A stretch of 64,000 nt of DNA from Pirellulales bacterium (GTDB taxonomy: Bacteria > Planctomycetota > Planctomycetia > Pirellulales > JAEUIK01). Each line of letters starts with the position of its first letter. The stretch's first letter is position 1. This document shows positions 49,552 through 64,000 of the stretch, piece by piece. The notes under the pieces are model-generated. The model saw only the letters and a program-made list of their open reading frames with translations, was not told the origin of the DNA and did not search any database. Location of the stretch: NCBI GenBank assembly GCA_019694435.1, contig JAIBBZ010000025.1:1-64000 (forward strand), read 5' to 3'. A program made the translations under genes and the position numbers.

Positions 49552-49645
49552 GGCTTCGCTCCCAGCTTGCGGGCACCTCGGAGTGGGGTCAGGATTATAG
49601 CCGCGTTCCTTGATCACCCGCACGTTTCTTCGGAACACGGCTGTC

Positions 49646-51598
49646 ATGCGGCAGAAGACTTGGCCCCTGTCGTGCTTGGCGATGCTGCTCGGTTGTTGGC
49701 TGTTGACCCGCGCGCACGGAGCGGACCGCCCGGACATCGTGATCGCCGATTTCGAGGGCCGCGATTACGGCGACTGGCAGGCCACCGGGGATGCCTTCGG
49801 CACGGGGCCCGCGCACGGCACGCTGCCCGGCCAGCAAACGGTGTCTGGCTACTTGGGCAATGGGTTAGTGAATACATTCCTGGGGGGTGACCCGGCTCAA
49901 GGGACGCTGCGTTCTCGACCGTTCGCGCTGGATCGCAAGTACTTGAACCTATTGATCGGCGGTGGCCGTCACCCCGACGAGACCTGCGTGAAACTGTTCG
50001 TCGACGATCAGGTCGTGCGCACCGCGACCGGCAATGCCACGACCGGCGCAGACGACGAGCATCTTTCCTGGCACACATGGGACGTGCAGCCCTGGATCGG
50101 CAAGCAAGCGCGGATCGAGATCGTCGATCGGCACAGCGGCGGTTGGGGCCACATCAACGTCGATCAGCTCGTGCAATCTGATCAGCCCGAGATCGATCCG
50201 CAGATCGAGCCCGGACTGGCTCAGGCCGACAGCAGCGTACGCGGCGCGGCAGCCCGGGCCGCGGCCGATCCGGCGCGCCCCGCCTATCACTTCTTGCCGC
50301 CGGCGCTATGGACGAACGATCCGAACGGACCCTTGTATCACGCGGGACAAGTGCACCTGTTCTACCAGCACAATCCCTACGGCGATCGCTGGGAGCACAT
50401 GCACTGGGGTCACGCGCGCAGTCGCGACCTGGTGCACTGGGAGCATCTGCCGATCGCCCTCGCCCCGTCGCAAGATCGCGGCGAAGAACATTGCTTTTCC
50501 GGCTGCGCAGCGCGCAATGCACAGGGCGAGCCGATGTTGTTCTATACCAGCATTGGCCGGCGCGATCCGGAGCAATGGGTGGCCTTGCCCGACGACGATC
50601 AATTGCTGCGCTGGCACAAAGCTCCTGGCAATCCGATCCTCTCGTTGCGGCTGCACGGTGACCAGCAGATCGACGATTGGCGCGATCCGTTCGTCTTCGC
50701 CTCCGCAGGGCGGACCTTCTTGGTCTGTGGTGGACATCCGCGCGGCGGTCGGGGATCGGTCATGCTCTACGAGGCGCTCGACGGCAGCCTGCTGCAATGG
50801 AAGTATCGCGGGGTGGCGTTTACGGGAGAGGAAGGCAACTGGGAATGCCCCAATCTCTTCCCTTTGGGCCAGCGCTACGTGCTGATCTATTCACCCCACG
50901 GACCGGTGCGCTACTACGTCGGCGATTTCGATCCGGATGCCGGACGCTTATCGCCCCAACAGCGGGGTGTGCTCGACGTGTCGGACGATTTCTATGCGCC
51001 CAACGGCCTGGCGCTGCCCGACGGTCGTTGGATCATGTGGGGCTGGGTGCGAAACTTTCCTGGCGGGCGCGGCTGGAACGGCTGCATGACGCTGCCGCGC
51101 GAGTTGCAGATCGGCACCGATGGCAATCTGCTGCAGCGTCCGGCGACAGAAGTTGCGAAGCTGCGCTCCGAACAGCGTGTCCAGCAGCGAGGCCTGGCGC
51201 TGCCGGCCGGGGCGACGCCGGTCGAAGGCCTGGCGGGCGAATGCCTGGAAATCGCCGCGACGCTTCGCCTGGGCAGCGCCAGACAGATGGCCCTCGAAGT
51301 GCACGCCGGCGACCAGCAGGGGGCCAGCGTGTCGATCGCCTGGAACGGCAAGCATCTATCGATCGGCGAGCGCTCGTGTGCTCTACAACTGGGTGCGAAC
51401 GAACCGCTGCGGTTGCGCGTGTTCGTCGATCGCAGCGTGGTCGAGGTTTATGCCAATGACCGCGTGGCCATGACCAAGGTGGTCGAGATCGGGCAGCAGC
51501 CTCGATACGTCTGGAATGTCGTCGGCCAGGGTGCACATCTCGACGCCTGCGACGCCTGGAGACTTGAGTCGGCTTGGACCGCGTCCGAGCTGCGTTAG
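49646..51598 (+). CDS. Secreted GH32 beta-fructosidase (levanase/inulinase-like)
   Basis: 650 residues with a signal peptide (about 1-26). An N-terminal beta-sandwich of about 170 residues (40-180) precedes the five-bladed GH32 propeller. The nucleophile is D225 in 'WTNDPNGP', the transition-state stabiliser is D347 in 'WRDPFVF', and the acid/base is E400 in 'NWECPNLF'. A C-terminal beta-sandwich domain follows ('LRLRVFVDRSVVEVYANDRV'). It cleaves beta-fructosides such as levan, inulin or sucrose outside the cytoplasm. The ATG at 49646 is placed before the signal peptide; the Shine-Dalgarno is weak. The preceding divergent gene also encodes an exported hydrolase. Confidence 0.9.
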   Translation: MRQKTWPLSCLAMLLGCWLLTRAHGADRPDIVIADFEGRDYGDWQATGDAFGTGPAHGTLPGQQTVSGYLGNGLVNTFLGGDPAQGTLRSRPFALDRKYLNLLIGGGRHPDETCVKLFVDDQVVRTATGNATTGADDEHLSWHTWDVQPWIGKQARIEIVDRHSGGWGHINVDQLVQSDQPEIDPQIEPGLAQADSSVRGAAARAAADPARPAYHFLPPALWTNDPNGPLYHAGQVHLFYQHNPYGDRWEHMHWGHARSRDLVHWEHLPIALAPSQDRGEEHCFSGCAARNAQGEPMLFYTSIGRRDPEQWVALPDDDQLLRWHKAPGNPILSLRLHGDQQIDDWRDPFVFASAGRTFLVCGGHPRGGRGSVMLYEALDGSLLQWKYRGVAFTGEEGNWECPNLFPLGQRYVLIYSPHGPVRYYVGDFDPDAGRLSPQQRGVLDVSDDFYAPNGLALPDGRWIMWGWVRNFPGGRGWNGCMTLPRELQIGTDGNLLQRPATEVAKLRSEQRVQQRGLALPAGATPVEGLAGECLEIAATLRLGSARQMALEVHAGDQQGASVSIAWNGKHLSIGERSCALQLGANEPLRLRVFVDRSVVEVYANDRVAMTKVVEIGQQPRYVWNVVGQGAHLDACDAWRLESAWTASELR

Positions 51599-52023
51599 GG
51601 CGTCACTGCCCGTTGACCGAGTTCAACCGCAAGGAAGCCGGGACCAAATCGCGCGGGGACCCGGGCCCGTGGCTGGTCGAGACAATCGTGCGGTCGTGCA
51701 AGGTCTCGACGCCATGGCTGCGAGGCGGCGGACGAAAGACGCTTTTCTTCGAAAAAATCGGCCAGAACACGCATGGAATTGCGTCCAAGGAGGGAGAGAG
51801 GCTTGCGAGCCGAGTTTTGCACGCCGGAAGGCAATTGGTAATTGTGTGTTACCTTATTGTTGGGTGGTGCCTTCGGTAAATATCGCAAATACCACCTTTT
51901 TTATTTTGACAGCCTTACGACTATTTGCGTATGCTCATCCCTAACTTGGGTGCTTGGGGTGGCCGCGCCTTCTCGGGCAGGTCAGCTAGGAAGTTCACTT
52001 CATCTGGTTTGGGAGGGACGCTA
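51599..52023. other. Intergenic region upstream of the PEP-CTERM gene, with an AT-rich segment
   Basis: 425 bp with no supported gene. The part from about 51840 to 51935 is strikingly AT-rich for this GC-rich window and contains a near-consensus promoter (51906-51935). It leaves a leader of about 80 nt before the next start codon. The first 240 bp show nothing that I can assign. Confidence 0.6.
51906..51935 (+). promoter_or_regulatory. Near-consensus sigma70-type promoter of the PEP-CTERM gene
   Basis: TTGACA (51906-51911, perfect -35), an 18-bp spacer, then TATGCT (51930-51935). It is the best promoter match I found in the window. The AT-rich DNA directly upstream (a TTTTTTATTTT run at about 51897-51907) could act as an UP element. 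Transcription would start near 51942. Confidence 0.65.
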
Positions 52024-52824
52024 ATGAAGCTAACGAAGATCGTTTCTACCTTTGCGCTTACGGCGCTGCTGGCGCTGTGCGCTCAGCCCGCATTAGCGAC
52101 GCCGACTCCGGTGACGCTAACGCTGACACCGGCGTCAGTCCTCACCTTGACTGTAGCTGCTCTCGGCTCGGTCACTGGTACGACGACGACGACGCTTACT
52201 GGCACGCAAGGCATCACGCTTGATGATGGCGTGCCCACGGCCACCTCCATGACGCTCGATGGTGGCAACATTAATCTTTCCGATGCCAGCTTGTTTCTGA
52301 ACCTTGGTTTCCTCCTCGGTGGTGTGAACGCCGGCATCAAGAACGGCCATCTCACCGGACTGGTCAGCACCGGCTCGGTGCCGCTCAACTACACCGCTGG
52401 CACCTGGAACTACACGTTCGATCCAGGCGATCCGTCGGGGGGCAACCTGACGTCGGCCGGGATTGATAACGGCATCCTGACCTACAACGGCACCGGCATC
52501 ATCGGCAGCCTGTTGGGTTCGGGGACGCTCGATTTTTCGACCAGCCCGGCAAACTTCGATCTGCCGCCGCTGGGACAAGTCGCCACGCTGACCCAGACCC
52601 TGCTGGGGAGCAGCGGCGTATCGACGACCTACAAGATCACCATGTCGGCACCGATTAATGTTGCCCAATCGGTGTTGACTGCCCCGGTACAGGTCGACGC
52701 GACGCTGGTTGGCGGGATCGTCGCCACGGGCACGTATGTCGTGGCGCCGGAACCTTCGACGATCGTGTTGTTGGGAATCGCATTGGCAGGTCTCGTGGCC
52801 ATGCGCCGCAAGATTCGCCGGTAA
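52024..52824 (+). CDS. Exported PEP-CTERM protein of unknown function
   Basis: 266 residues. Signal peptide 'IVSTFALTALLALCAQPALA', a Thr/Gly/Leu-rich beta body with repeats of 'TLT' and 'GTGTLDFSTSP'-like segments, and a C-terminal PEP-CTERM signal: 'VAPEPSTIVLLGIALAGLVA' plus basic tail. The body resembles the small secreted planctomycete proteins that are anchored at the surface after exosortase processing. GGGAGGGA lies 6 nt before the ATG at 52024. Codon use is AT-richer than the neighbours in the N-terminal half. It is a free-standing gene with a strong promoter and terminator, so it is likely to be highly expressed. Confidence 0.8.
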   Translation: MKLTKIVSTFALTALLALCAQPALATPTPVTLTLTPASVLTLTVAALGSVTGTTTTTLTGTQGITLDDGVPTATSMTLDGGNINLSDASLFLNLGFLLGGVNAGIKNGHLTGLVSTGSVPLNYTAGTWNYTFDPGDPSGGNLTSAGIDNGILTYNGTGIIGSLLGSGTLDFSTSPANFDLPPLGQVATLTQTLLGSSGVSTTYKITMSAPINVAQSVLTAPVQVDATLVGGIVATGTYVVAPEPSTIVLLGIALAGLVAMRRKIRR

Positions 52825-53412: not shown

Positions 53413-54816
53413 ATGCCGATGACTGACGCATCCATCGAGCGTGATACCCCCGCAGTCCGCTCGCCGTCCGGCGGCGAAGTCACGGGGCCCTTGGCGCTCG
53501 CCGTGTTTGAGCGGTACTACCTGGCCGACGATCGCCCTGGCCACCCGACGGTGTTTCCGGTCGAGGCCCGATTTCGTGGGCCGCTCGATCGCGCGGCCCT
53601 GCAGGAGGCCCTGGCTGCGACCGTCGCGCGGCATCCGATGCTGCGTATGCGGCTGGCCGGCCCAGAGTCGCAACCGTATTGGATGCCCGGCGAAGCCCCG
53701 AAGATTCAGTGGGGCGACCTGGCATCCGCGGAGCCCGGGGCCATGCGGCCCTTCGAATTGCGTCTCGAGGCGCCTCTGCGCGTGATGGTCGATGTCGACG
53801 TCGCAGCCTGGCGACTGCGTCTGTTGTTGCATCATGCGGCCTGCGACGGCGTGGGGGCCGTCCAATTCCTCGCAGACCTGTTGATCGCTTACGACCATCG
53901 AGTTCGTGGCGCTGCCGGTGAACCTGCGTGGAACCCGCTCGACCCGCAACGGCTGCTCGTGCGCGATGAATTCGGTCTGCGCGATTACCGGACCACGCTC
54001 ACAGACGCGTATTACACGGCAGTGCTCTGGACGCGCCTGCTGTTCCGCCGCGCGGCGGTGATGCGATCGCCAGCACCGGCCGAAATCCGGGCCGGGGTGG
54101 GCCCATTCGATCCCTTCGCCTTTGGCACCTGCACGTTGAGCGCCGGCGAGACCGACCAACTCTCGCAGGTGGCGCGAAGTCTGGGCGTCACGGTGAATGA
54201 CTTGCTGCTGCGCGACTTGTTTCTCGAACTGGCCGCCTGGAATGCTGGAGGTACTCGGCGGCCGTTACGGATCACTGTGCCCACGAATCTCCGGCTCGAG
54301 GCGGATGCCATGATGCCTGCGGCCAACGTCCTGGCCTATGCCTTCCTCGAGCGGCGCGACCGCCAGTTGCACGATGCCAAGGCACTGCTGCGCTCGGTGC
54401 ACGACGAAATGGTCGCCATCAAGCAATGGCGGCTGGGATTGTTCTTCATCGGCGGGCTGCGCATCGCCTGTGCTCTGCCGGCGCTCATGCGCTGGGCGCT
54501 GCGTCGAAACCTGGCGTTTGCGACGGCCGTGTTCAGCAACCTGGGAACCGTGCTTGCTCTGGCCCCGCTCGAACGCCGTTCAGGGCACCTGGTGTGCGGC
54601 GATAGCCTGCTCGAATCGCTGGTTGGCGTGCCGCCCATCCGCCCGAATACGCGGCTGTCGCTGAGCGCCCTAAGCTATGCGGGCAGGCTGGCCGTAATGC
54701 TGCTGGCGGACCCGCAGTATTTTTCGCAGGCGGAGCGCGACGCCTTCTTGCAGGCGTACCTCGCGCGCGTGCGAGAGACGATTAGCTCGAGCGCGCCGGA
54801 ACCTGCGCGACGGTGA
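53413..54816 (+). CDS. Condensation/acyltransferase-superfamily protein (PapA/WS-DGAT-like)
   Basis: 467 residues of the chloramphenicol-acetyltransferase-like superfamily. The catalytic motif is H140-H141-x3-D145-G146 in 'LLLHHAACDGVGAVQFLADL', where the second His is the general base. Other landmarks are 'LDRAALQEALAATVARHPML' near the N-terminus and 'LGVTVNDLLLRDLFLELAAW' plus 'FSNLGTVLALAPLER' in the C-terminal half. Members acylate hydroxyl or amino groups using acyl-CoA or acyl-carrier-protein donors (PapA, wax-ester/DGAT, NRPS condensation). Its stop overlaps the convergent MMPL gene by 35 bp. With the exporter, the reductase and the PKS-like gene close by, an esterification step in lipid assembly is a fair inference. 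Confidence 0.75.
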   Translation: MPMTDASIERDTPAVRSPSGGEVTGPLALAVFERYYLADDRPGHPTVFPVEARFRGPLDRAALQEALAATVARHPMLRMRLAGPESQPYWMPGEAPKIQWGDLASAEPGAMRPFELRLEAPLRVMVDVDVAAWRLRLLLHHAACDGVGAVQFLADLLIAYDHRVRGAAGEPAWNPLDPQRLLVRDEFGLRDYRTTLTDAYYTAVLWTRLLFRRAAVMRSPAPAEIRAGVGPFDPFAFGTCTLSAGETDQLSQVARSLGVTVNDLLLRDLFLELAAWNAGGTRRPLRITVPTNLRLEADAMMPAANVLAYAFLERRDRQLHDAKALLRSVHDEMVAIKQWRLGLFFIGGLRIACALPALMRWALRRNLAFATAVFSNLGTVLALAPLERRSGHLVCGDSLLESLVGVPPIRPNTRLSLSALSYAGRLAVMLLADPQYFSQAERDAFLQAYLARVRETISSSAPEPARR

Positions 54817-57160
54817 CGACCGGCTGCACAAACATTTCGGGCTCGACTGGGGCCGGCTGCAGATCCTGCTGCCGGCGGCGCAGGCGGCGTTCCCAGTATG
54901 CCCCCAGCGGTCCACCTAGCAGCGCCGGCAGGAAAACCAGGTTGCCCGCTAGCCCAATGGTCAGCAAGGCCATCATCACCAGGCCGAAGCGGCACGTCGG
55001 GGCAAACGGACTGAACAGAAAAGCCAGGACCCCCAAACCCAGGACGGCCCAGCTTTGGTACATCGCGCGGCCGCAGTGCTGGTAGCCGCTGGCGATGGCC
55101 GCACGGCGCGAGCGGCCGCCTTGAATCTCGCGGCGGAAACACAACAGGAAATGCATCACGTCGTCGACCGTGACTCCGAGCGCGACGGCCGGCGGCATGA
55201 CGGTCCCCAAATCGACGACCGTGCCGGTCCAGCCAAAGACGCCGAACAGCACCACCGCCGGCAGCACGCTCGGCAACAACAAGAGCAGACCGGCCGCGCC
55301 GCTGCGCACGGCCAGGACCATCGCCACGACGATGAACAGCACGTCGGTGCCGTAGCCGAAGACCATGCCGCGCAGCAGCGAATTCTGTGCTTGATACACA
55401 ATCGGCAGCACGCCCGTGTAGCTCACTTGGATGCCGTGAATTCGCTGCTTGTCGAGGGCACGCTCAACCGGTGCAACCGCCCGATCGACCTGGGCCTTGA
55501 AAGCCTGGTAGTCGACGTCGGCCAGGGCCGCCACGCGCGCCGTGATTCTCCACAGCTCTTGCGGCCCATCGTCGCGAAAGAAACCTGTCTGGCGAAATTC
55601 GGGGCGATGGCGCTCAAGGCGCACCTTTTCGAGCGTGGCCCGGGCTCGGCTGCCGCCGAAGATATTGCGCGACATCGTGCCCAGCGCATGGGCCGAGCCG
55701 GGACGCTGCGGCTCGATCAAGCTGGGCGCAAAAGTCACCGCCGACAGCGCCGTGCCGACATTAGGTACGGCCTCGATATCGCGTTGCAGACGTTCGACCA
55801 CGTAGAAACGCTGCCGGAAATCGAGGGGGCAATCGGCATCGAACCGCACCAGCACCTCGATCGGCGAGAGCGGACCCAAATGTTTTTCGAGCCAGCCGTA
55901 ATCGCGGAGGATGCGGGCATCGGACGAAAACAGCCGCATGATTTGTACTGAGGTTTCCACGCGTGGCAGTCCCCAGGCGGCCAGCACCACGACCAGCAAG
56001 GTTGCCAGCGTGCACAGCCCGGGGCGGTCGAGGACCAGCGTCATCGCGCGCTGCCAGATCCCTCCGCGAGCGCGCACTTCGAACACGGCAAGCTCCGCAG
56101 GAGTCGGCAGCACCGGCCAGAGCCGCAGCGCCGCTGGAAGCAAGAGCAGCAAACAGACCAGGCCGAAGCACACCCCCAGCGCCGAGTAAATGCCAAAGGC
56201 CTGGATCGGCGCCAGCTCGCTGACCGCCAACGACAAGAGGCCCACGGCCGTCGTGAAGGTTGCCAGTCCGAGGGGCAATGCCGCCAGGCGCACGGCTTCG
56301 GCCGGCGCACGCTCGGGTCCGACTTCAACCACGAGTTCGCGATAGTAATTTGCCAGGTGGATCGCGCCGGATGCGGCCGCCACATAGACCAGCGGCGGCA
56401 TCGTCAGGACGATGGCGTTCATGACGCCGCCCGTGAAATAGAAGGCACTCAGGCTCAGGGCCACGGTGTAGAGCGCGGTGGTGAGCACCAGCGCAATCAA
56501 CAGCGGACGCCGCAGACACCACCAACACACCAGCAGGCCAAACACGCTGGTGAGCCCCAACACCAGGAGCATGCTTTGCTCACCGGCCACGTCGAGGGCC
56601 ACGTTGTCGACCGGCGGGCCCCCGAGCTTGAGTTCCGTGGGAGCCAGTCCACACTCGCGCTGGGCGACTTGCTCGAGTTCGGTCAGCGCGGCTCGCATCT
56701 GGTGCACGCCGGCCTCGGTCATCGAAAAGACGACGCAGGTCGTGCGTCCGTCGGGGCCGATGAGCGAGCCGGTCAGGCGCCGTAGGGCTTCCTCGCGCTG
56801 GAGATTGATCGGCGGCTGACAAAGCTTCTCGAGCACGCTGGGGCCCGTGATGACTTTGCTGAAATACGGAGAGCGGCTGGGCCCGGGCTCGAGCCGTGGC
56901 GGACCCACGAGCTGTTCTGCCAGTCGCCCGACGCGAGGATCGTCGAGCGTGCACCCCTCCCAGCTCACCAGCACGAAGGCCTCGGGGTCGAAATGGGCCA
57001 GGAATCGTAGAAAGTCACGGGTCTCTTGATAGGCACCGGGGAGCCACTGCGTGACGTCGTTTTGCATCCGCGAAAGCGACAGCAGTGCTCCCGTGGCGGC
57101 CACCGGCGCGAAGAGCGCAAAGGCCACGACCGTCCACCAGGCTCGGCGTCGTTGGCTCAT
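54782..57160 (-). CDS. MMPL/RND-superfamily lipid exporter-like protein
   Basis: 792 residues with the internal duplication of RND proteins: a first helix near residue 12, a periplasmic loop (about 30-195), five or six helices, 'IQAFGIYSALGVCFGLVCLL', a seventh helix ('LCTLATLLVVVLAAWGLPRV'), a second large loop (about 415-600), and the final helix group with 'PPAVALGVTVDDVMHFLLCF'. The Asp-Asp pair in the fourth helix of the second half is the proton relay position in this superfamily. The loops are too small for a multidrug AcrB type, so it fits MMPL/HpnN-like lipid transporters. The ATG at 57160 starts the protein just before the first helix. Divergent from the reductase-SCP2 gene. Confidence 0.85.
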   Translation of the reverse strand: MSQRRRAWWTVVAFALFAPVAATGALLSLSRMQNDVTQWLPGAYQETRDFLRFLAHFDPEAFVLVSWEGCTLDDPRVGRLAEQLVGPPRLEPGPSRSPYFSKVITGPSVLEKLCQPPINLQREEALRRLTGSLIGPDGRTTCVVFSMTEAGVHQMRAALTELEQVAQRECGLAPTELKLGGPPVDNVALDVAGEQSMLLVLGLTSVFGLLVCWWCLRRPLLIALVLTTALYTVALSLSAFYFTGGVMNAIVLTMPPLVYVAAASGAIHLANYYRELVVEVGPERAPAEAVRLAALPLGLATFTTAVGLLSLAVSELAPIQAFGIYSALGVCFGLVCLLLLLPAALRLWPVLPTPAELAVFEVRARGGIWQRAMTLVLDRPGLCTLATLLVVVLAAWGLPRVETSVQIMRLFSSDARILRDYGWLEKHLGPLSPIEVLVRFDADCPLDFRQRFYVVERLQRDIEAVPNVGTALSAVTFAPSLIEPQRPGSAHALGTMSRNIFGGSRARATLEKVRLERHRPEFRQTGFFRDDGPQELWRITARVAALADVDYQAFKAQVDRAVAPVERALDKQRIHGIQVSYTGVLPIVYQAQNSLLRGMVFGYGTDVLFIVVAMVLAVRSGAAGLLLLLPSVLPAVVLFGVFGWTGTVVDLGTVMPPAVALGVTVDDVMHFLLCFRREIQGGRSRRAAIASGYQHCGRAMYQSWAVLGLGVLAFLFSPFAPTCRFGLVMMALLTIGLAGNLVFLPALLGGPLGAYWERRLRRRQQDLQPAPVEPEMFVQPVVTVAQVPARSS

Positions 57161-57655
57161 GATTGCTGCACTGCTGCCTCGAATCGCGTCACACGGCGAT
57201 TCCCTACCCGGCGGGGGGAAGTCTCGCTCCGGTCCCAACGGGCGGGTGCGGAATCTCGACAACTGACGCGCAAGTGCTTTGTCTTTCGAGGGTTATTGAG
57301 GCGTGCCTGCGTGCACGGCGATTGACGAGCGACCACGGCGGTTGCGACCGCGTGCGCCCTGTATACCGCTCTCCAGTATATACGCAACGCGGCACGCAGT
57401 TCGCTGCTTTATTCGTGTACCGTTCCTGTCCAGAATAGACCTCTACGCTTCCGCGCGCTTGAGGTTCCAGAAGTCCTCATGAATCGAGCCTGCCGCCGCG
57501 AGCCCTGGTACCGCGCCGGTGCCCCGGGGGCTTGGCCAGATCGACATGCAGCACGCGCTTGCGTGTGCCGAACGCATAGCGGAGTGAGGGACCGTCGGCC
57601 CGATGGGGGCGGTGGGCCGAATCGGCGTGATGCCATCGTAAGAGGATCGTTGTTG
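57161..57655. other. Divergent intergenic region between the MMPL-like and reductase-SCP2 genes
   Basis: 495 bp without a supported gene. Several short open frames exist on both strands but none has family content or a good ribosome site. At 57360-57382 two short TATAC-containing stretches lie close together, the only AT-rich patch; it may hold promoter elements for one or both divergent genes. I could not match a convincing -35/-10 pair. Confidence 0.5.
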
Positions 57656-59113
57656 ATGTCGTATTTGTTGCTTACCGGGTCCACGGGACTGCTCGGCCGG
57701 TATGTTCTGCGCCACTTGAGCGACGCCGACCGGCGCGTGGCGGTGGTGGTTCGGCCGGGCAAACTGGCCACGGCCCGGCAGCGCGTCGAGCTGCTCATGC
57801 AAGACTGGGAAGCGCGGCTGGGCCGCCCGCTGCCGCGGCCCGTCGTGCTGGCCGGCGACCTGCGACGGGCGGACCTGGGCCTGGCGCCCGCCGACGAGCG
57901 TTGGATTGCCGAGAACTGCGGCGCGCTGCTGCATAGCGCGGCCAGCATGGTGTTCAAAGAACAGGACGACGGCGAGCCGCGTCGAACGAACGTCGACGGT
58001 ACGCGGCACGTGCTCGAACTATGTCGCCGCACGGGTATCGGCGAGTTTCATCACGTCTCGACCGCCTATCTGTGCGGATTGCGCACCGGTCGCGTGCTGG
58101 AGACCGAGCTCGATTTGGGGCAAGACCTGGGCAACGTCTACGAGCAAAGCAAGCTGGACGGCGAGAAGCTGGTCCGCGGGGCGAAATGGCTGCGGCAAAC
58201 CACGTTCTACCGGCCGGCCAGCATTGTCGGCGATGCGCGCGACGGCTTCACAACGTCCTATCATGGCTTCTACCTGCCCTTGCAGTTGGCCTACACGATG
58301 GCGGGTCGCATCCCGCCGGAGGAAATGGGCGAGCGGTTCTTTGCTCAGCTCGGCTTGCGTGGCGACGAAGGCAAGAATTTTGTACCGGTCGATTGGGTCG
58401 CCGCGGGCCTGGTTTCGATCTATTTGCGGCCTGAATGTCACGGCCAGACGTATCACCTCGCCTCGCCGGCGCCGGTGACTGTGCGCGAGATGCAACGGGT
58501 GATTCAGGACTCGATTCGCAAGTATTCCAAACGCCGCACCGCCACCCGGGCCACGGAACAGGATCTGGCCACCTGCGAGCGGATGTTTCATCACCACATG
58601 CAGATCTATCGCTCGCATTGGCGCGACGATCCGGTGTTCGACTGTACGTTCGCCAACCAGGTGTTGCCGCACTTGCCGTGCCCCCGCATGGATTACGAGC
58701 GCATGCTGCGGATCGCGGGATATGCCATCGAACAGAACTTCGCCGCGCCGAAGCACCGGCAGCTTTCGCTGGCCTTCGACGCCGAGCAATGGCTTTCCCA
58801 GACCGCGCCATGCGGCGGCGCCGGCGAGATGCTGGTCAATCTGCGCGTCAGCGGTCCTGGCGGCGGCGAGTGGACGCTGGCACTGGCCGACGAAGGCGCC
58901 GTCGGCTGGACGGCCGGATTGTGCGAGGCGGCGCCAGCCACGGCGTATTGCCATGCTCAGACCTTGGCGCGGCTGGCCCGCGCCGAGACGAGTTGGTCCG
59001 CGGCGCTAGCCAGCGGCCAATTGCTGACTGAATGTGAGCGACCGGAGGGCGGTCAGGCCCTCGCGGCGCTCGAAAGTTGGTTCGACACGCAGGTCGGCGC
59101 CGAGGCCACGTGA
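57656..59113 (+). CDS. Thioester-reductase-like SDR fused to an SCP2-like domain
   Basis: 485 residues. Residues 1 to about 280 are an extended SDR domain: the NAD(P)-binding motif 'TGSTGLLG' (7-14), 'HHVSTAYLCG' and the catalytic Tyr152-x-x-x-Lys156 in 'VYEQSKLDGEKL'. The sequence is closest to thioester reductase/fatty acyl reductase types that release an acyl chain as aldehyde or alcohol. Residues about 395-480 resemble an SCP2 (sterol carrier protein) domain ('GEMLVNLRVSGPGGGEWTLA', 'SWSAALASGQLLTE'), which binds lipids. AGAGGA is 9 nt before the ATG. The PKS-like gene begins 73 bp downstream in the same direction, so the reductase may off-load or modify its product. Confidence 0.8.
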   Translation: MSYLLLTGSTGLLGRYVLRHLSDADRRVAVVVRPGKLATARQRVELLMQDWEARLGRPLPRPVVLAGDLRRADLGLAPADERWIAENCGALLHSAASMVFKEQDDGEPRRTNVDGTRHVLELCRRTGIGEFHHVSTAYLCGLRTGRVLETELDLGQDLGNVYEQSKLDGEKLVRGAKWLRQTTFYRPASIVGDARDGFTTSYHGFYLPLQLAYTMAGRIPPEEMGERFFAQLGLRGDEGKNFVPVDWVAAGLVSIYLRPECHGQTYHLASPAPVTVREMQRVIQDSIRKYSKRRTATRATEQDLATCERMFHHHMQIYRSHWRDDPVFDCTFANQVLPHLPCPRMDYERMLRIAGYAIEQNFAAPKHRQLSLAFDAEQWLSQTAPCGGAGEMLVNLRVSGPGGGEWTLALADEGAVGWTAGLCEAAPATAYCHAQTLARLARAETSWSAALASGQLLTECERPEGGQALAALESWFDTQVGAEAT

Positions 59114-59149
59114 TCTTCTTGCTTGGAAGGTCTGGCCTTGAGCACGACG

Positions 59150-59164
59150 TGGCATTGAGAGTGC
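59150..59164 (+). promoter_or_regulatory. Possible sigma54-type promoter before the PKS-like gene
   Basis: TGGCATTGAGAGTGC has the GG and GC dinucleotides at the -24/-12 distance and matches the consensus TGGCACG-N4-TTGC at all but three positions. The start of transcription would lie only about 11 nt before the ATG at 59187, which is tight. It may be chance. Confidence 0.25.
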
Positions 59165-59186
59165 GGTTTCATCGACTGAGAGCAAC

Positions 59187-62100
59187 ATGAAGAGTCCTGC
59201 AAGTATTCCGCTGGCCATCATCGGCATGGGCTGCCGATTGCCGGGCGCCGATAATCTCGACGAGTTTTGGAAATTGGTGGTCGAGGGACGATCGGCCATC
59301 GTCGAGCTGCCCCCGGATCGCTTGAACCAGGAGCTGTATTACGATCCGAAGGTCGGCACGCTCGGCAAAAGCTATTCCAAGCTGGGCGGGATCATCAATA
59401 ACCGCGATTTCGACCGCCGCCGGTGTCCGATTTCGCCGCAGCTCGAGGCCAGCGTTGACCAGGCCCATCTGCTGATGTGCGACGTCGCGGCGGCAGCGCT
59501 GCGCGACGCGGGCCTGGACCCGTTCAACGTGCCACAGCGGAACACGGGCGTCTATATCGGCCACGCCCAAGGCAGCACCTTAGGCGGCGATTACACCTAC
59601 GCGACGTATGCGCAAGAAGCGGCCGAGATGTTGCGCGAGGTGGCCGAGCTGGGCAATATGCCCCGCGCCGAACTCGACAAGCTCATCGCCGAGATGACCG
59701 CGAGGATTCGCGCGCCCCTGCCGGTCCGGGCGGCCGACTCGCCGGACGTCGCCTGTAGCCTGGTGGCGGGGACCATTTCCAAGGCCTTTGGCCTTACGGG
59801 GCCGTTCCTGGCGCTGAACTCGGCCTGCGCCTCGTCGTTGCAAGCGATGCTCGTCGGGGCACGCGCCTTGCAGTTCGGACACGTCGACATGGCGATGGTC
59901 GGCGGCGCCTCGGACTGCAAAGGCGATTCGCTCGTGTTGTTCGCCCATGCGCGCGCGATGAGCTCCAAGGGCTCGCGCCCCTTTGACGCTGATGCCGATG
60001 GCCTGATCGTGGGCGAAGGATACGTCGCCCTGGTCATGAAAACGCTCGAACGCGCGCTGGCCGATGGCGATCCGATTCGCGCAGTGGTCCGCGGGTTGGG
60101 AGTTTCCAGCGACGGCAAAGGCAAGAGCTTGTGGGCGCCGCGCAAGGAAGGGCAGGTTCTGGCCATGCAGCGGGCCTATCGCGAGGGCCTGGATCTTGGC
60201 GACCTGGACTACGTCGAAGCACATGCCACGGCGACGCAACTGGGCGATGCCACGGAGCTGAACACGCTCGCCGAAGTGCTCAACGACAAGCTTCCGCCCG
60301 GTAAGAAGGTGCCCATTACGAGCGTCAAGGCCAACGTCGGCCATACGCTCGAAACAGCGGGCATTGCTGGCGTCATCAAGACGGTGCTCGCGCTGACCAA
60401 GAACACGATTCCGCCGGCGGCCAACGTCGCCGCGCTCAATCCGAAGATTGACTGGGACCGGGTGCCCGTTTACGTGCCGCTCAAGCCCGAGGTCTGGCAG
60501 CCGCATGCCGACGGCCGTCCGCGCCGGGCAGGCGTCAATGCGTTCGGGATCGGCGGGCTGAACATGCACGTGGTGATCGAGGAGTTCAACGATGCCTCGC
60601 GGCGGCTCATCGCGCCGCAGCGTGCGGCCGCGAACGGCTCGACGCACGAAGCCGAAGCCAAGGCGGTCGCGGTGATCGGCATGGGCTGCGTGTTGCCGGG
60701 CGCGCAGGATGTACCGAATTTTTGGCAGCTCCTGGAAAGCGGCCGCGACCCAAAGTGCGACGTGCCGGCCGAGCGTTGGCGGGCCGATCTGGCGTATTCG
60801 CCCGGCGAGGCGCGAGCTTTCCACAGCCCGACCAAGCGCGGTGGCTTCGTTACCGACTTCGAATACGACTGGCAGACGCACAAGATTCCGCCGAAGCAGG
60901 TGGCGCAAGCGGATCCTTTGCAGTTCATGCTGCTCGAGGCCTCGGACCAGGCGCTCAAGCAGGCGGGCTACGACAAACGGCCCTTCGACCGAACTCGCGT
61001 GGGCGTGGTTGTGGGCACCGAATTCGGCGGCGATTTTGCCTTCCAGCTGCAGATGGGGCTGCGTCTGCCGGAAATGAAGGTGCTCCTCGAAGAGCTGCTT
61101 GCCCGGCGGCAATTCCCGGCCGCCGGCATCGCCCAGGTGCAGGAACAATTCGGCAAGGTGCTGCTCAAACATTGGCCGGCGCTGATTGACGAGACCGGCA
61201 GCTTCAGCACCAGCAGTCTCGCTTCGCGAACGGCGAAGACCTGGAATCTGATGGGCGGAGCCGTGGCCATCGACAGCGGTCACGGCTCGTCGCTCGCGGC
61301 GCTGTCGATCAGTGTCGACGCCTTGCTGGCGGGCGATGTCGACATGATGCTTTGCGCCGCCGGCCAGCGGCGTCTGGGGCTGCCCGAGTACGAGGCCCTG
61401 GCCATCAATGGCTTTTTGGCCGTCGACGGCGACCCGGCATGCCCCCTGGATGCCGGAGTGCGCGGCTATGTGCCCGGCGAAGGGGTTGGCGTGTTCCTGC
61501 TCAAACGTCTGTCGGAGGCGCGCCGCGATGGAGATCGCGTCTTGGCGATCGTGCGCGGTGTTGGCGGTGCTCACGATCCTCAGGCACATCAGGCGATGCT
61601 CGCCGCGGCCCAGCGAGCCGCACAGGCCGCATCGCTCGAACAGGCTCCGATCGATCTGGTCGAGATCGACGGGAGCATCGCCGCCGAAGATGCCCGGCGA
61701 CAATTGACGGAGCTGGCGAGTTGGAACGCGCCGCGCGGCGGCCAGCCGGCCATCCTGAGCACAGTCGTCGCCCAGATCGGACACACCGAAGCCGCGGCCG
61801 GGATGGCCTCGCTGATCAAGGCCAGTCTGGAAATGGAGCATGGCCGTGTGCCGGGCACGTTCGGCCTGCAACAGCCGCTGGCGATCGAAGGCGGATCGCG
61901 GCCGTTCGTCGTCGCCAGTGAGCCGACGCCGCTGCCGTCGATGGATGCGCCGTGCCTGGCTGCGGTCGCTTCGCGTTCGCGCGGGCTGACCTACGTCGCT
62001 CTGCTTGAGCACGGCTGCGAGCAGAACCCCGCGAACAACGCTTCACGAGCGGTGCGCCAGCCGCAGGCCGCCACGACACCCGTTACCCCCGTACCCCGCT

Positions 62101-64000
62101 TGAACGATCTTCCATCGATGACTGCAGCGACAGGCGACTCTTGGCAGGTTTTTAGATTAGGAGCATCCACCGAAGCCGATCTGCTCGCGCGCGTGCGCAC
62201 GCTTGCCGGCGGCGCTGACGATCCCTTCGGCAGCTCGTCCGCGGCTTTTGCGCCGCAGGATCGGTTCCGCGCCGCGATCGTGGCGCGCGACCGCGAAGCG
62301 TTGCGCGAACGGTTGCGCTCCGCTGCGCAACAAGGCGCGAACCCCGCGGCGCACGCCGTGTTGCGACAGCAGGGCATCTTTCTTGGACAGCGAGCCGAAC
62401 CACGCCCACGCGTGGTGTTTTGCTTTCCCGGTCAAGGATCGCAATACCCTGACATGGTGCGGGCCCTCGTTGAACAAAGCACGGCGGCCGCGCAAGCGCT
62501 GGCCGAGGCCGAGGCCGCGATCGCGCGCTATGGCTACCAACCGTTCGCACTGTTCGCTTGGGGCGAAGGTGCTGGTCTGGGAAGCAGCGCGTGGCTGACG
62601 CAGCTCTCGATGCTCGTGGCGAATCATGTGACCAGCGCCGGGCTGCGTGCTCTGGGGGTCGAACCGGATGCTGTGCTGGGACACAGTTTTGGCGTCTACT
62701 CGGCGCTGTGTGCTGCCGGCTCCATCGACTTCGAAACGGCCATGCAGCTTACCCGTGCGCGCTGCGATGGCATCGCGACCAGCCGAGTTGTTGGGGGGTT
62801 GTTGGCCGCCGGCGCGGCGAAGGAGCAGGTTCTCGAAATCGCAGCGGTCGAAAAGGTCACCGTCTACCTCGCCAATCACAACGCGCCGCAGCAGACGGTC
62901 GTCGGCGGCGCACCTGGTGAATTGGAGCGATTGCAAACGATTCTCAAGGCCCGCGGCATAGCCGCCAAAATCCTCGCGGTGCCCGCGCCCTTTCACACGC
63001 CGTTGATGAAGGCGACCACCGGTCCACTCGAGCGCGCGCTCGAGACGGCCGAGATTCGTCCGGCTCGCGCGGCCTTGTGGAGCATCCTAGATGGCCGGCC
63101 CGTGACCGAGGTGACCGACGTTCGCCGCAGCCTGGTCGAGCATCTCACGTCGCCGGTGTTGTACGTCGACCTGATTCGCAATGTGACGGCCGACAAGCCT
63201 TGCGTGTTGGTCGAGGTCGGGCCGCAGCAGGTGTTGACCAATCTGAATCGCCGGATTGTCGAGGACCCAGCGGTGACGACGATTGCGTCGGATCAGCCCA
63301 AACGCCCCGGCATGGAATCGTTGATCCAGGTGCAGGCGTGCCTGGAAGTGCTCGGCGTCTTCGACGCCGAGACTCGGGCGCCAGCGGCTACGGTCACCGC
63401 GCGCGGCACAGTGCGCCACGAGCTGCTGACGTTCGATGCGACTAAGCGCCGCCGCGATCGGATGCGCCAGGCCGCCCAGACCGGCAAGCGTCCAAGCGCT
63501 GTGGCCGCTCCACGAGATTCTGCACCGACAACTGTGGCCGCTCGGCCAGCGTCCGCTCAGCCCGAGCGGCCGCAGCCGGCCGCGCCACCGGTCGCTCAGG
63601 CACCGCGTGCCGTCGCCGCGCCCACAGAGTCGAAGCTCGCCGCGGTGAAACCGGTATCTGCCCCGGCACCAGCTCGCCCGGGCGTCGATCTGGAACGCTT
63701 CCTGATCAACTTTGTCGTGGATCAAACCGGCTATCCGCCGGAGGTGGTCGAGCTCGACGCCGACCTGGAGGCCGACCTGGGTATCGACAGCATCAAGAAG
63801 GCTCAGTTGTTCGGCGAGCTGCAGGAGTATTTCGACGTCGTTCCAACCGAAGAACTGACGCTTGACATGTTCCCGACGCTACGGCACGTGCTTGATTTCC
63901 TCAAGACCGTGCCCATCAAAGGCAACTTGCCTGCGACCGGTGACACCGCCGTTGCCTCGACGCCCGATCTTGCCGAGTTGCCGAATCCTGCGCCGGCGTC
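59187..64000 (+). CDS. Iterative PKS / PUFA-synthase-like multidomain protein (KS, degenerate KS, AT, ACP), 3' truncated by window edge
   Basis: The frame stays open to the window end (about 1,604 codons). KS1 (about 8-470): active-site C214 in 'LNSACASSLQA', H346 in 'VEAHATATQLGD' and H386 in 'KANVGHTLETAG'. A second KS-fold domain (about 492-930) has His699 in the Cys position ('IDSGHGSSLAAL') and lacks the first catalytic His ('VEIDGS'), so it cannot condense. An acyltransferase (about 1078-1390) follows with 'FPGQGSQYPD' and nucleophile S1167 in 'GHSFGVYSA'. After an Ala/Pro-rich linker comes one ACP (about 1500-1575) with phosphopantetheine S1535 in 'LGIDSIKKAQ'. The inactive KS followed by AT is like PfaB, and KS plus inactive KS is like PfaC, so it belongs to the secondary-lipid/PUFA-like synthases. 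Further ACP, KR or DH domains probably lie beyond the window. Confidence 0.9.
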   Translation, partial: MKSPASIPLAIIGMGCRLPGADNLDEFWKLVVEGRSAIVELPPDRLNQELYYDPKVGTLGKSYSKLGGIINNRDFDRRRCPISPQLEASVDQAHLLMCDVAAAALRDAGLDPFNVPQRNTGVYIGHAQGSTLGGDYTYATYAQEAAEMLREVAELGNMPRAELDKLIAEMTARIRAPLPVRAADSPDVACSLVAGTISKAFGLTGPFLALNSACASSLQAMLVGARALQFGHVDMAMVGGASDCKGDSLVLFAHARAMSSKGSRPFDADADGLIVGEGYVALVMKTLERALADGDPIRAVVRGLGVSSDGKGKSLWAPRKEGQVLAMQRAYREGLDLGDLDYVEAHATATQLGDATELNTLAEVLNDKLPPGKKVPITSVKANVGHTLETAGIAGVIKTVLALTKNTIPPAANVAALNPKIDWDRVPVYVPLKPEVWQPHADGRPRRAGVNAFGIGGLNMHVVIEEFNDASRRLIAPQRAAANGSTHEAEAKAVAVIGMGCVLPGAQDVPNFWQLLESGRDPKCDVPAERWRADLAYSPGEARAFHSPTKRGGFVTDFEYDWQTHKIPPKQVAQADPLQFMLLEASDQALKQAGYDKRPFDRTRVGVVVGTEFGGDFAFQLQMGLRLPEMKVLLEELLARRQFPAAGIAQVQEQFGKVLLKHWPALIDETGSFSTSSLASRTAKTWNLMGGAVAIDSGHGSSLAALSISVDALLAGDVDMMLCAAGQRRLGLPEYEALAINGFLAVDGDPACPLDAGVRGYVPGEGVGVFLLKRLSEARRDGDRVLAIVRGVGGAHDPQAHQAMLAAAQRAAQAASLEQAPIDLVEIDGSIAAEDARRQLTELASWNAPRGGQPAILSTVVAQIGHTEAAAGMASLIKASLEMEHGRVPGTFGLQQPLAIEGGSRPFVVASEPTPLPSMDAPCLAAVASRSRGLTYVALLEHGCEQNPANNASRAVRQPQAATTPVTPVPRLNDLPSMTAATGDSWQVFRLGASTEADLLARVRTLAGGADDPFGSSSAAFAPQDRFRAAIVARDREALRERLRSAAQQGANPAAHAVLRQQGIFLGQRAEPRPRVVFCFPGQGSQYPDMVRALVEQSTAAAQALAEAEAAIARYGYQPFALFAWGEGAGLGSSAWLTQLSMLVANHVTSAGLRALGVEPDAVLGHSFGVYSALCAAGSIDFETAMQLTRARCDGIATSRVVGGLLAAGAAKEQVLEIAAVEKVTVYLANHNAPQQTVVGGAPGELERLQTILKARGIAAKILAVPAPFHTPLMKATTGPLERALETAEIRPARAALWSILDGRPVTEVTDVRRSLVEHLTSPVLYVDLIRNVTADKPCVLVEVGPQQVLTNLNRRIVEDPAVTTIASDQPKRPGMESLIQVQACLEVLGVFDAETRAPAATVTARGTVRHELLTFDATKRRRDRMRQAAQTGKRPSAVAAPRDSAPTTVAARPASAQPERPQPAAPPVAQAPRAVAAPTESKLAAVKPVSAPAPARPGVDLERFLINFVVDQTGYPPEVVELDADLEADLGIDSIKKAQLFGELQEYFDVVPTEELTLDMFPTLRHVLDFLKTVPIKGNLPATGDTAVASTPDLAELPNPAPA

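Follow-up and report, generated by a model that had tools for sequence, protein, structure and literature searches.

Mycobacteria use a functional set of PapA acyltransferases, MmpL transporters, and Pks proteins in their phthiocerol dimycocerosate (PDIM) and sulfolipid pathways. Zeamine clusters unite a polyunsaturated fatty acid (PUFA)-like synthase with a GSA/MycA-type aminotransferase, a thioester reductase, a free condensation domain, a phosphopantetheinyl transferase (PPTase), and transporters (PMC3547906), and the heterocyst glycolipid pathway relies on the thioester reductase HglB together with an exporter of its own (PMC8064123). In their text, Shulse and Allen (2011; PMC3098273) sort Pfa-like systems into twenty types and place planctomycetes (Gemmata and Planctomyces limnophilus) in two of them; planctomycetes go unmentioned in a 2026 survey of lipids made by hybrid PUFA synthases. 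Here we describe a gene cluster at the 3' end of a 64,000-nucleotide stretch of Pirellulales bacterium DNA (contig JAIBBZ010000025.1, positions 1 to 64,000; C25:1-64000, referred to as the window) from an assembly of 6.13 Mb in 90 contigs. The cluster probably encodes a long-chain secondary-lipid line that is conserved within the class Planctomycetia, comprising iterative chain building, reductive release, tailoring or acylation, and export; we assign this scheme as a whole a probability of about 0.72.

Unless another contig or locus is named, coordinates refer to contig C25, which was read on beyond position 64000 to its end. An earlier note on this DNA had singled out an acyltransferase, an exporter, a reductase, and a polyketide synthase (PKS) within the window. 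All four were confirmed by the open reading frame listing, and their classes agree in Pfam and NCBIfam. The locus is arranged as follows.

53413..54816, + strand: free-standing condensation-superfamily acyltransferase (PapA5/wax-ester-synthase-like), with an HHAACDG motif
54782..57262, - strand: MMPL/RND-family transporter, convergent with the acyltransferase gene and overlapping it by 35 bp
57263..57655, no strand: intergenic region from which the transporter and reductase genes diverge, a probable promoter region judging from gene layout
57656..59113, + strand: thioester reductase of the short-chain dehydrogenase/reductase (SDR) type, with a T-Y-K motif; a putative SCP2-like domain makes up the C terminus, starting near residue 390
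C25:59187-70349, + strand: PUFA-type synthase, full open reading frame of 3720 aa, the first 1604 codons of which (59187..64000) lie in the window
C25:70410-71174, + strand: FabL-type SDR of 254 aa, 60 bp 3' of the PKS, outside the window
C25:71236-72135, - strand: YtnP-like metallo-hydrolase (metallo-beta-lactamase fold), convergent, outside the window
C25:72171-73661, - strand: AMP-ligase (acyl-CoA-ligase-like AMP-binding enzyme), outside the window
C25:73637-75262, - strand: GSA-type class III aminotransferase, outside the window

The reductase, PKS, and enoyl reductase genes share one strand with gaps of 60 to 75 bp, which is an operon-like arrangement. The PKS, recognized as such with Pfam, continues past the window to 70349. 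Its domain order is ketosynthase (KS), a Cys-less KS or chain-length factor (CLF), malonyl-type acyltransferase (MAT), four acyl carrier proteins (ACPs), a C45-type domain of Ntn fold, two ketoreductases (KRs), and a dehydratase (DH). Within the window the following domains were delimited.

59208..60605, + strand: KS1, catalytic motifs intact (NSACASS / EAHATAT / VGH)
60654..61976, + strand: second KS, CLF-like, DSGHGSS in place of the active-site Cys
62415..63263, + strand: MAT, GHSFG
63702..63902, + strand: first ACP (DSIKKAQ) in a tandem series of four, with the remaining three past the window end

The catalytic Cys is present in KS1 of all homologues (57/57) and at the same position of the second KS in none (0/57), and the second KS is therefore regarded as CLF-like. 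Both KRs carry S-Y motifs, the DH motif reads LIDH...P, and that of the MAT is intact. The protein thus joins an active KS and a CLF, a MAT and tandem ACPs, and KR and dehydratase functions, all features of a PUFA-type secondary lipid synthase. Against the PfaA model (NCBIfam TIGR02813) it scored 702.7 bits, below the cut-off of 1010. The earlier note had proposed looking beyond 64,000 for the remaining PKS domains, a PPTase, and further Pfa-like genes. The domains were found there; a PPTase beside the PKS was not, and no PfaB or PfaD was seen at the locus. Instead of a PfaD-type (NMO) enoyl reductase, absent among the annotated genes of the locus, there is the FabL-type SDR with its YX6K motif. 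A second PUFA-like locus lies in the same genome at C3:151064-about 168000 (L011, L012). It encodes a 3164-aa protein with NMO (PfaD-like), KS, AT, ACPs, KR, and DH, and then a KS-AT-DH protein. A PPTase domain at C3:165553 sits in a long open frame, just downstream of or inside the KS-AT-DH gene.

PUFA-type synthases, as described in the text of PMC3098273, have KS, CLF, MAT, tandem ACPs, KR, DH, and an iterative long-chain logic in common with the planctomycete synthase. Here, however, these parts form one polypeptide (KS-CLF-MAT-ACP4-C45-KR-KR-DH) and the enoyl reductase is a FabL-type SDR; neither this single-chain order nor the C45 domain occurs in any of the Pfa-like types as that text describes them. 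With the zeamine cluster of Serratia plymuthica, the planctomycete loci share a PUFA-like synthase with CLF, a GSA/MycA-type aminotransferase, a thioester reductase, a free-standing condensation domain, a PPTase, and transporters, whereas they have neither the NRPS/PKS peptide part nor PfaD, the aminotransferase is free-standing, and the exporter is MMPL rather than ABC (PMC3547906). The heterocyst glycolipid pathway (hglEDCB, DevBCA) likewise combines a PUFA-like synthase, a thioester reductase, and a dedicated exporter, but HglB has an N-terminal ACP in contrast to the putative C-terminal SCP2-like domain here, the heterocyst exporter is of the ABC type, and the product is glycosylated (PMC8064123). 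The set shared with the PDIM and sulfolipid pathways consists of a PapA5-like acyltransferase, an MMPL-family exporter, a PKS, and a reductase; however, PapA5 and MmpL model scores are far under their cut-offs here, and the synthase, with its CLF and tandem ACPs, belongs to the PUFA type. The Pfa and PDIM parallels drawn in the earlier note were thus useful and imperfect, and the aminotransferase points to a zeamine-like logic. The zeamine and heterocyst glycolipid pathways are nearer in logic than PDIM. We set the cluster apart from the Pfa, PDIM, and zeamine systems because each has one or more defining traits that were absent here or that lie beyond the reach of sequence comparison.

Joint function is supported by conservation and linkage. 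Judged by a KS1-CLF match at E ≤ 1e-120, 104 of the 397 genomes sampled from the order Pirellulales, about a quarter, carry the synthase. Neighborhoods were collected for 46 relatives, and counts include the window's own locus (47 in total). The enoyl reductase family occurs in 37 loci, the thioester reductase in 30 (plus eight in which it is fused to the PKS), the acyltransferase in 26 (plus six divergent copies), and the MMPL transporter in 19; the hydrolase, ligase, and aminotransferase are found in 15, 14, and 12, respectively. A PPTase gene adjoins the PKS in 14 loci. As a guard against common families, the position of the top match to each window protein was determined in the whole genomes of 25 relatives, in which a 40-60 kb locus represents less than 1% of the genome. 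The genome-wide best match to the FabL-type enoyl reductase lay beside the PKS in 25/25 genomes. The acyltransferase was at the PKS locus in 23/25 (best match there in 19/25) and the transporter in 18/25 (best match in 13/25), the latter loci coming from several families and showing more than one orientation and position. All 14 genomes having a ligase carried the best match on the PKS contig, one of them 23 kb off. For the reductase, the 29 highest-scoring matches across the order were located, and 27 of them lay within about 16 kb of a PKS. Outside the order, in the same class, three further loci were found, with the FabL-type gene beside the PKS in 3/3 and the reductase in 2/3. Relatives that carry the PKS without partner genes nearby would have spoken against a shared function, and in the 25 genomes mostly the opposite was seen. 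Synteny in the 46 relatives' loci, the best-match results, and the reductase fusion in eight loci support the functional link that had been proposed for the four genes.

A Rieske oxygenase (glycine-betaine-monooxygenase-like) adjoins the PKS in 22 loci (e.g., L041:3102-4259); there is none at the window's locus. Named genomes were also scanned. With the CLF region as query no matches were obtained, and with a KS alignment 80 loci were retained. All but two bear planctomycete names, the exceptions reading simply "bacterium." Among the 80 are Blastopirellula marina DSM 3645, Bythopirellula polymerisocia Pla144, Rhodopirellula, and Stieleria. The first two are cultured strains, and the cluster supplies testable genes for a seemingly undescribed class of long-chain lipids. 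Several records named Candidatus Kuenenia stuttgartiensis carry a Pirellulales-type KS (L153, L170, L173, L177, L178, L184, and L191); these names look doubtful.

The reductase matched Pfam NAD_binding_4 at 3e-39, in agreement with the thioester reductase noticed earlier. Its start is most likely 57656 rather than 57479, because homologues open with an M-x-Y-x-LLTG-like sequence. A profile of 27 homologues had the R domain of MxaA (myxalamid) as its top PDB match (4e-41), and the predicted structure (mean pLDDT, 92) matched the same R-domain structures. The T-Y-K residues are retained in nearly all homologues. In sequence and fold, the family is nearest to PKS/NRPS R domains, and the window protein scored 119.4 of the 213 bits required by the NCBIfam thioester reductase model TIGR01746. 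The SCP2 part of the earlier assignment has support at the level of the family more than from the window protein by itself, in which a single-sequence search did not detect SCP2 and a single-sequence PDB search with the tail was uninformative. Pfam SCP2 was matched by 10/27 family members (best, 6e-6), the family profile matched the C terminus of 7tl5 (5e-4), and the predicted structure contains a distinct alpha/beta C-terminal domain. In eight loci of one family (L093, L095, L097, L099, L101, L109, L111, and L118), the reductase part is fused to the PKS N terminus without most of the SCP2-like tail, which argues that the reductase acts on the PKS product.

The acyltransferase, recognized from its HHxxxDG motif, which is intact, matched Pfam Condensation at 2e-7 and exceeded the cut-off for WS_DGAT_C. 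The top PDB relative of its family profile was a PapA5-type transferase (4.5e-17), and the NCBIfam PapA5 model gave 27.3 of 396 bits, short of its cut-off. The exporter reported on the opposite strand was recovered as a Pfam MMPL match (2e-21) and reached 92.5 of 874.7 bits with the MmpL model TIGR00833, again below cut-off. Its frame opens at TTG 57262; since homology begins only some 30-45 residues inside the frame, the true start may be near 57160. Linkage suggests the PKS lipid as its cargo.

Of 37 homologues of the downstream SDR, 36 match the YX6K motif in its strict pattern, and the remaining one preserves the spacing. YX6K is the enoyl-reductase form of FabI and FabL, in contrast to FabG, and a FabG identity was rejected on this basis. 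A HemL identity of the aminotransferase was ruled out by score (303 bits, with 527 needed) and by linkage. The PDB structure nearest to it is that of another aminotransferase, with the AMT domain of MycA also among the matches. Ten further class III aminotransferases in the same genome exceed the Pfam cut-off.

The C45-type domain occupies synthase residues about 1985-2330, between the ACPs and the KRs. In contrast to the isopenicillin N acyltransferase and acid ceramidase family to which C45 belongs, it is embedded in a PKS; no report of such a domain in a PKS was found in the literature searched. A profile of 27 embedded domains matched isopenicillin N acyltransferase (2x1d) over its full length (3.5e-14), and 27/27 matched the NCBIfam C45 family NF040521 at E ≤ 0.01. 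The window copy scored 57.4 bits, below the 85-bit cut-off, and its predicted structure (mean pLDDT, 77) matched the folds of isopenicillin N acyltransferase and acid ceramidase with a TM score of about 0.6. Both the Gly-Cys nucleophile and the His-x-x-Asn-x-Asp motif are preserved in 10/27 aligned relatives and, elsewhere in the class, in G675 and G683. The window copy has neither the nucleophile Cys nor the Asn-x-Asp motif. As nucleophile and motif have been lost in the window's clade, a single branch of 17 loci (SH-aLRT, 99), here the domain probably persists as a structural relic or serves for docking. Motif loss coincides with the presence of the hydrolase, ligase, and aminotransferase. 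This co-occurrence was not taken as a sign of a causal link, because the tree contains a single event and hence one independent pair. An intact domain might pass the chain carried by the ACPs on to an amine or to water, perhaps with an autoproteolytic cut at Gly-Cys between ACPs and KRs; the window's clade would then have lost this activity to the hydrolase, AMP-ligase, and aminotransferase, giving a new class of exported amino-lipid made by a planctomycete-specific megasynthase family. We consider this extended scenario possible, though less likely than not. A free-standing protein of ~497 aa (L217:14327-15820) contains a C45 domain far nearer the PKS-embedded ones than other free-standing C45 domains are (about 303 versus 90-130 bits).

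The sequences themselves show gene content and domain order, catalytic motifs, synteny, and the fusion of reductase and synthase; in the route proposed here we infer iterative mode, chain length, release product, tailoring substrates, and transporter cargo. Drawing on KS-CLF, MAT, DH, and its two KRs, the single-chain synthase would iteratively lengthen an acyl chain from malonyl units on its four ACPs, and the downstream-encoded FabL-type SDR would perform enoyl reduction in trans. The separate thioester reductase, with its putative SCP2-like lipid-binding domain, would free the chain as an aldehyde or alcohol. In the window's clade, the AMP-ligase, the metallo-beta-lactamase-fold hydrolase, and often the class III aminotransferase may tailor the product or supply parts of it. 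The condensation-fold acyltransferase would acylate the alcohol or amine after its release, and the MMPL transporter would carry the product across the inner membrane.

The nature of the product can be read in two ways. A structural envelope lipid, resembling heterocyst glycolipids or a wax/PDIM-type ester, would arise if the reductase yielded an alcohol that the acyltransferase esterified and the transporter placed in the outer envelope. The role of HglB and its exporter in heterocyst glycolipids (PMC8064123) and the kinship of the acyltransferase to PapA5 and WS/DGAT enzymes agree with this, as does the finding that loci lacking aminotransferase, ligase, and hydrolase still have the core PKS, enoyl reductase, R domain, and AT. 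However, no glycosyltransferase was recognized in the locus, the aminotransferase and ligase are left unaccounted for, and the transporter is just distantly MmpL-like; we regard an envelope lipid as a serious possibility that falls somewhat short of an even chance. Alternatively, the aminotransferase could act on the PKS-bound chain or on the reductase aldehyde, and the resulting long-chain (poly)amino alcohol would be N-acylated by the condensation-fold enzyme and secreted as a bioactive compound, as for zeamine. This we hold tentatively, as possible rather than expected: the aminotransferase is not HemL, resembles the MycA domain, and belongs to a gene set similar to that of zeamine clusters (PMC3547906), but the NRPS part and PfaD are absent, the aminotransferase is a separate gene, and the AMP-ligase is not explained by such a product. 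Found in 12/47 loci only, the aminotransferase is not a core step.

Several observations weigh against the lipid line as a whole. The linkage pattern spans several families, though the genomes are related and do not constitute independent trials; many loci come from two genera of one family. The aminotransferase is limited to the window's clade and absent in some of its members, and no PPTase adjoins the window's PKS, with three encoded elsewhere in the genome. The transporter is missing from the locus in 7/25 relatives, and in some genomes the best match to it lies elsewhere; its link is therefore weaker than that of the other genes. It might be a hopanoid/HpnN-like lipid carrier that lies nearby by chance, outside the pathway. 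In 12/25 relatives the genome-wide best match is not at the locus, and models for HAE3 and HpnN appear together with those for MMPL among its matches; its recurrence in several families, in varied orientation and position, nevertheless makes this improbable. That the whole neighborhood is accidental, as genes on both strands might suggest, is contradicted by synteny across families and into further members of the class, by the genome-wide best matches, and by the gene fusion, and we give this explanation hardly any weight. The lipid line remains our preferred reading.

Just 5' of the cluster, two window features were judged by eye only: a GH32-like glycosidase at 49610-51598 and a small secreted protein with a PEP-CTERM-like tail at 51925-52824.

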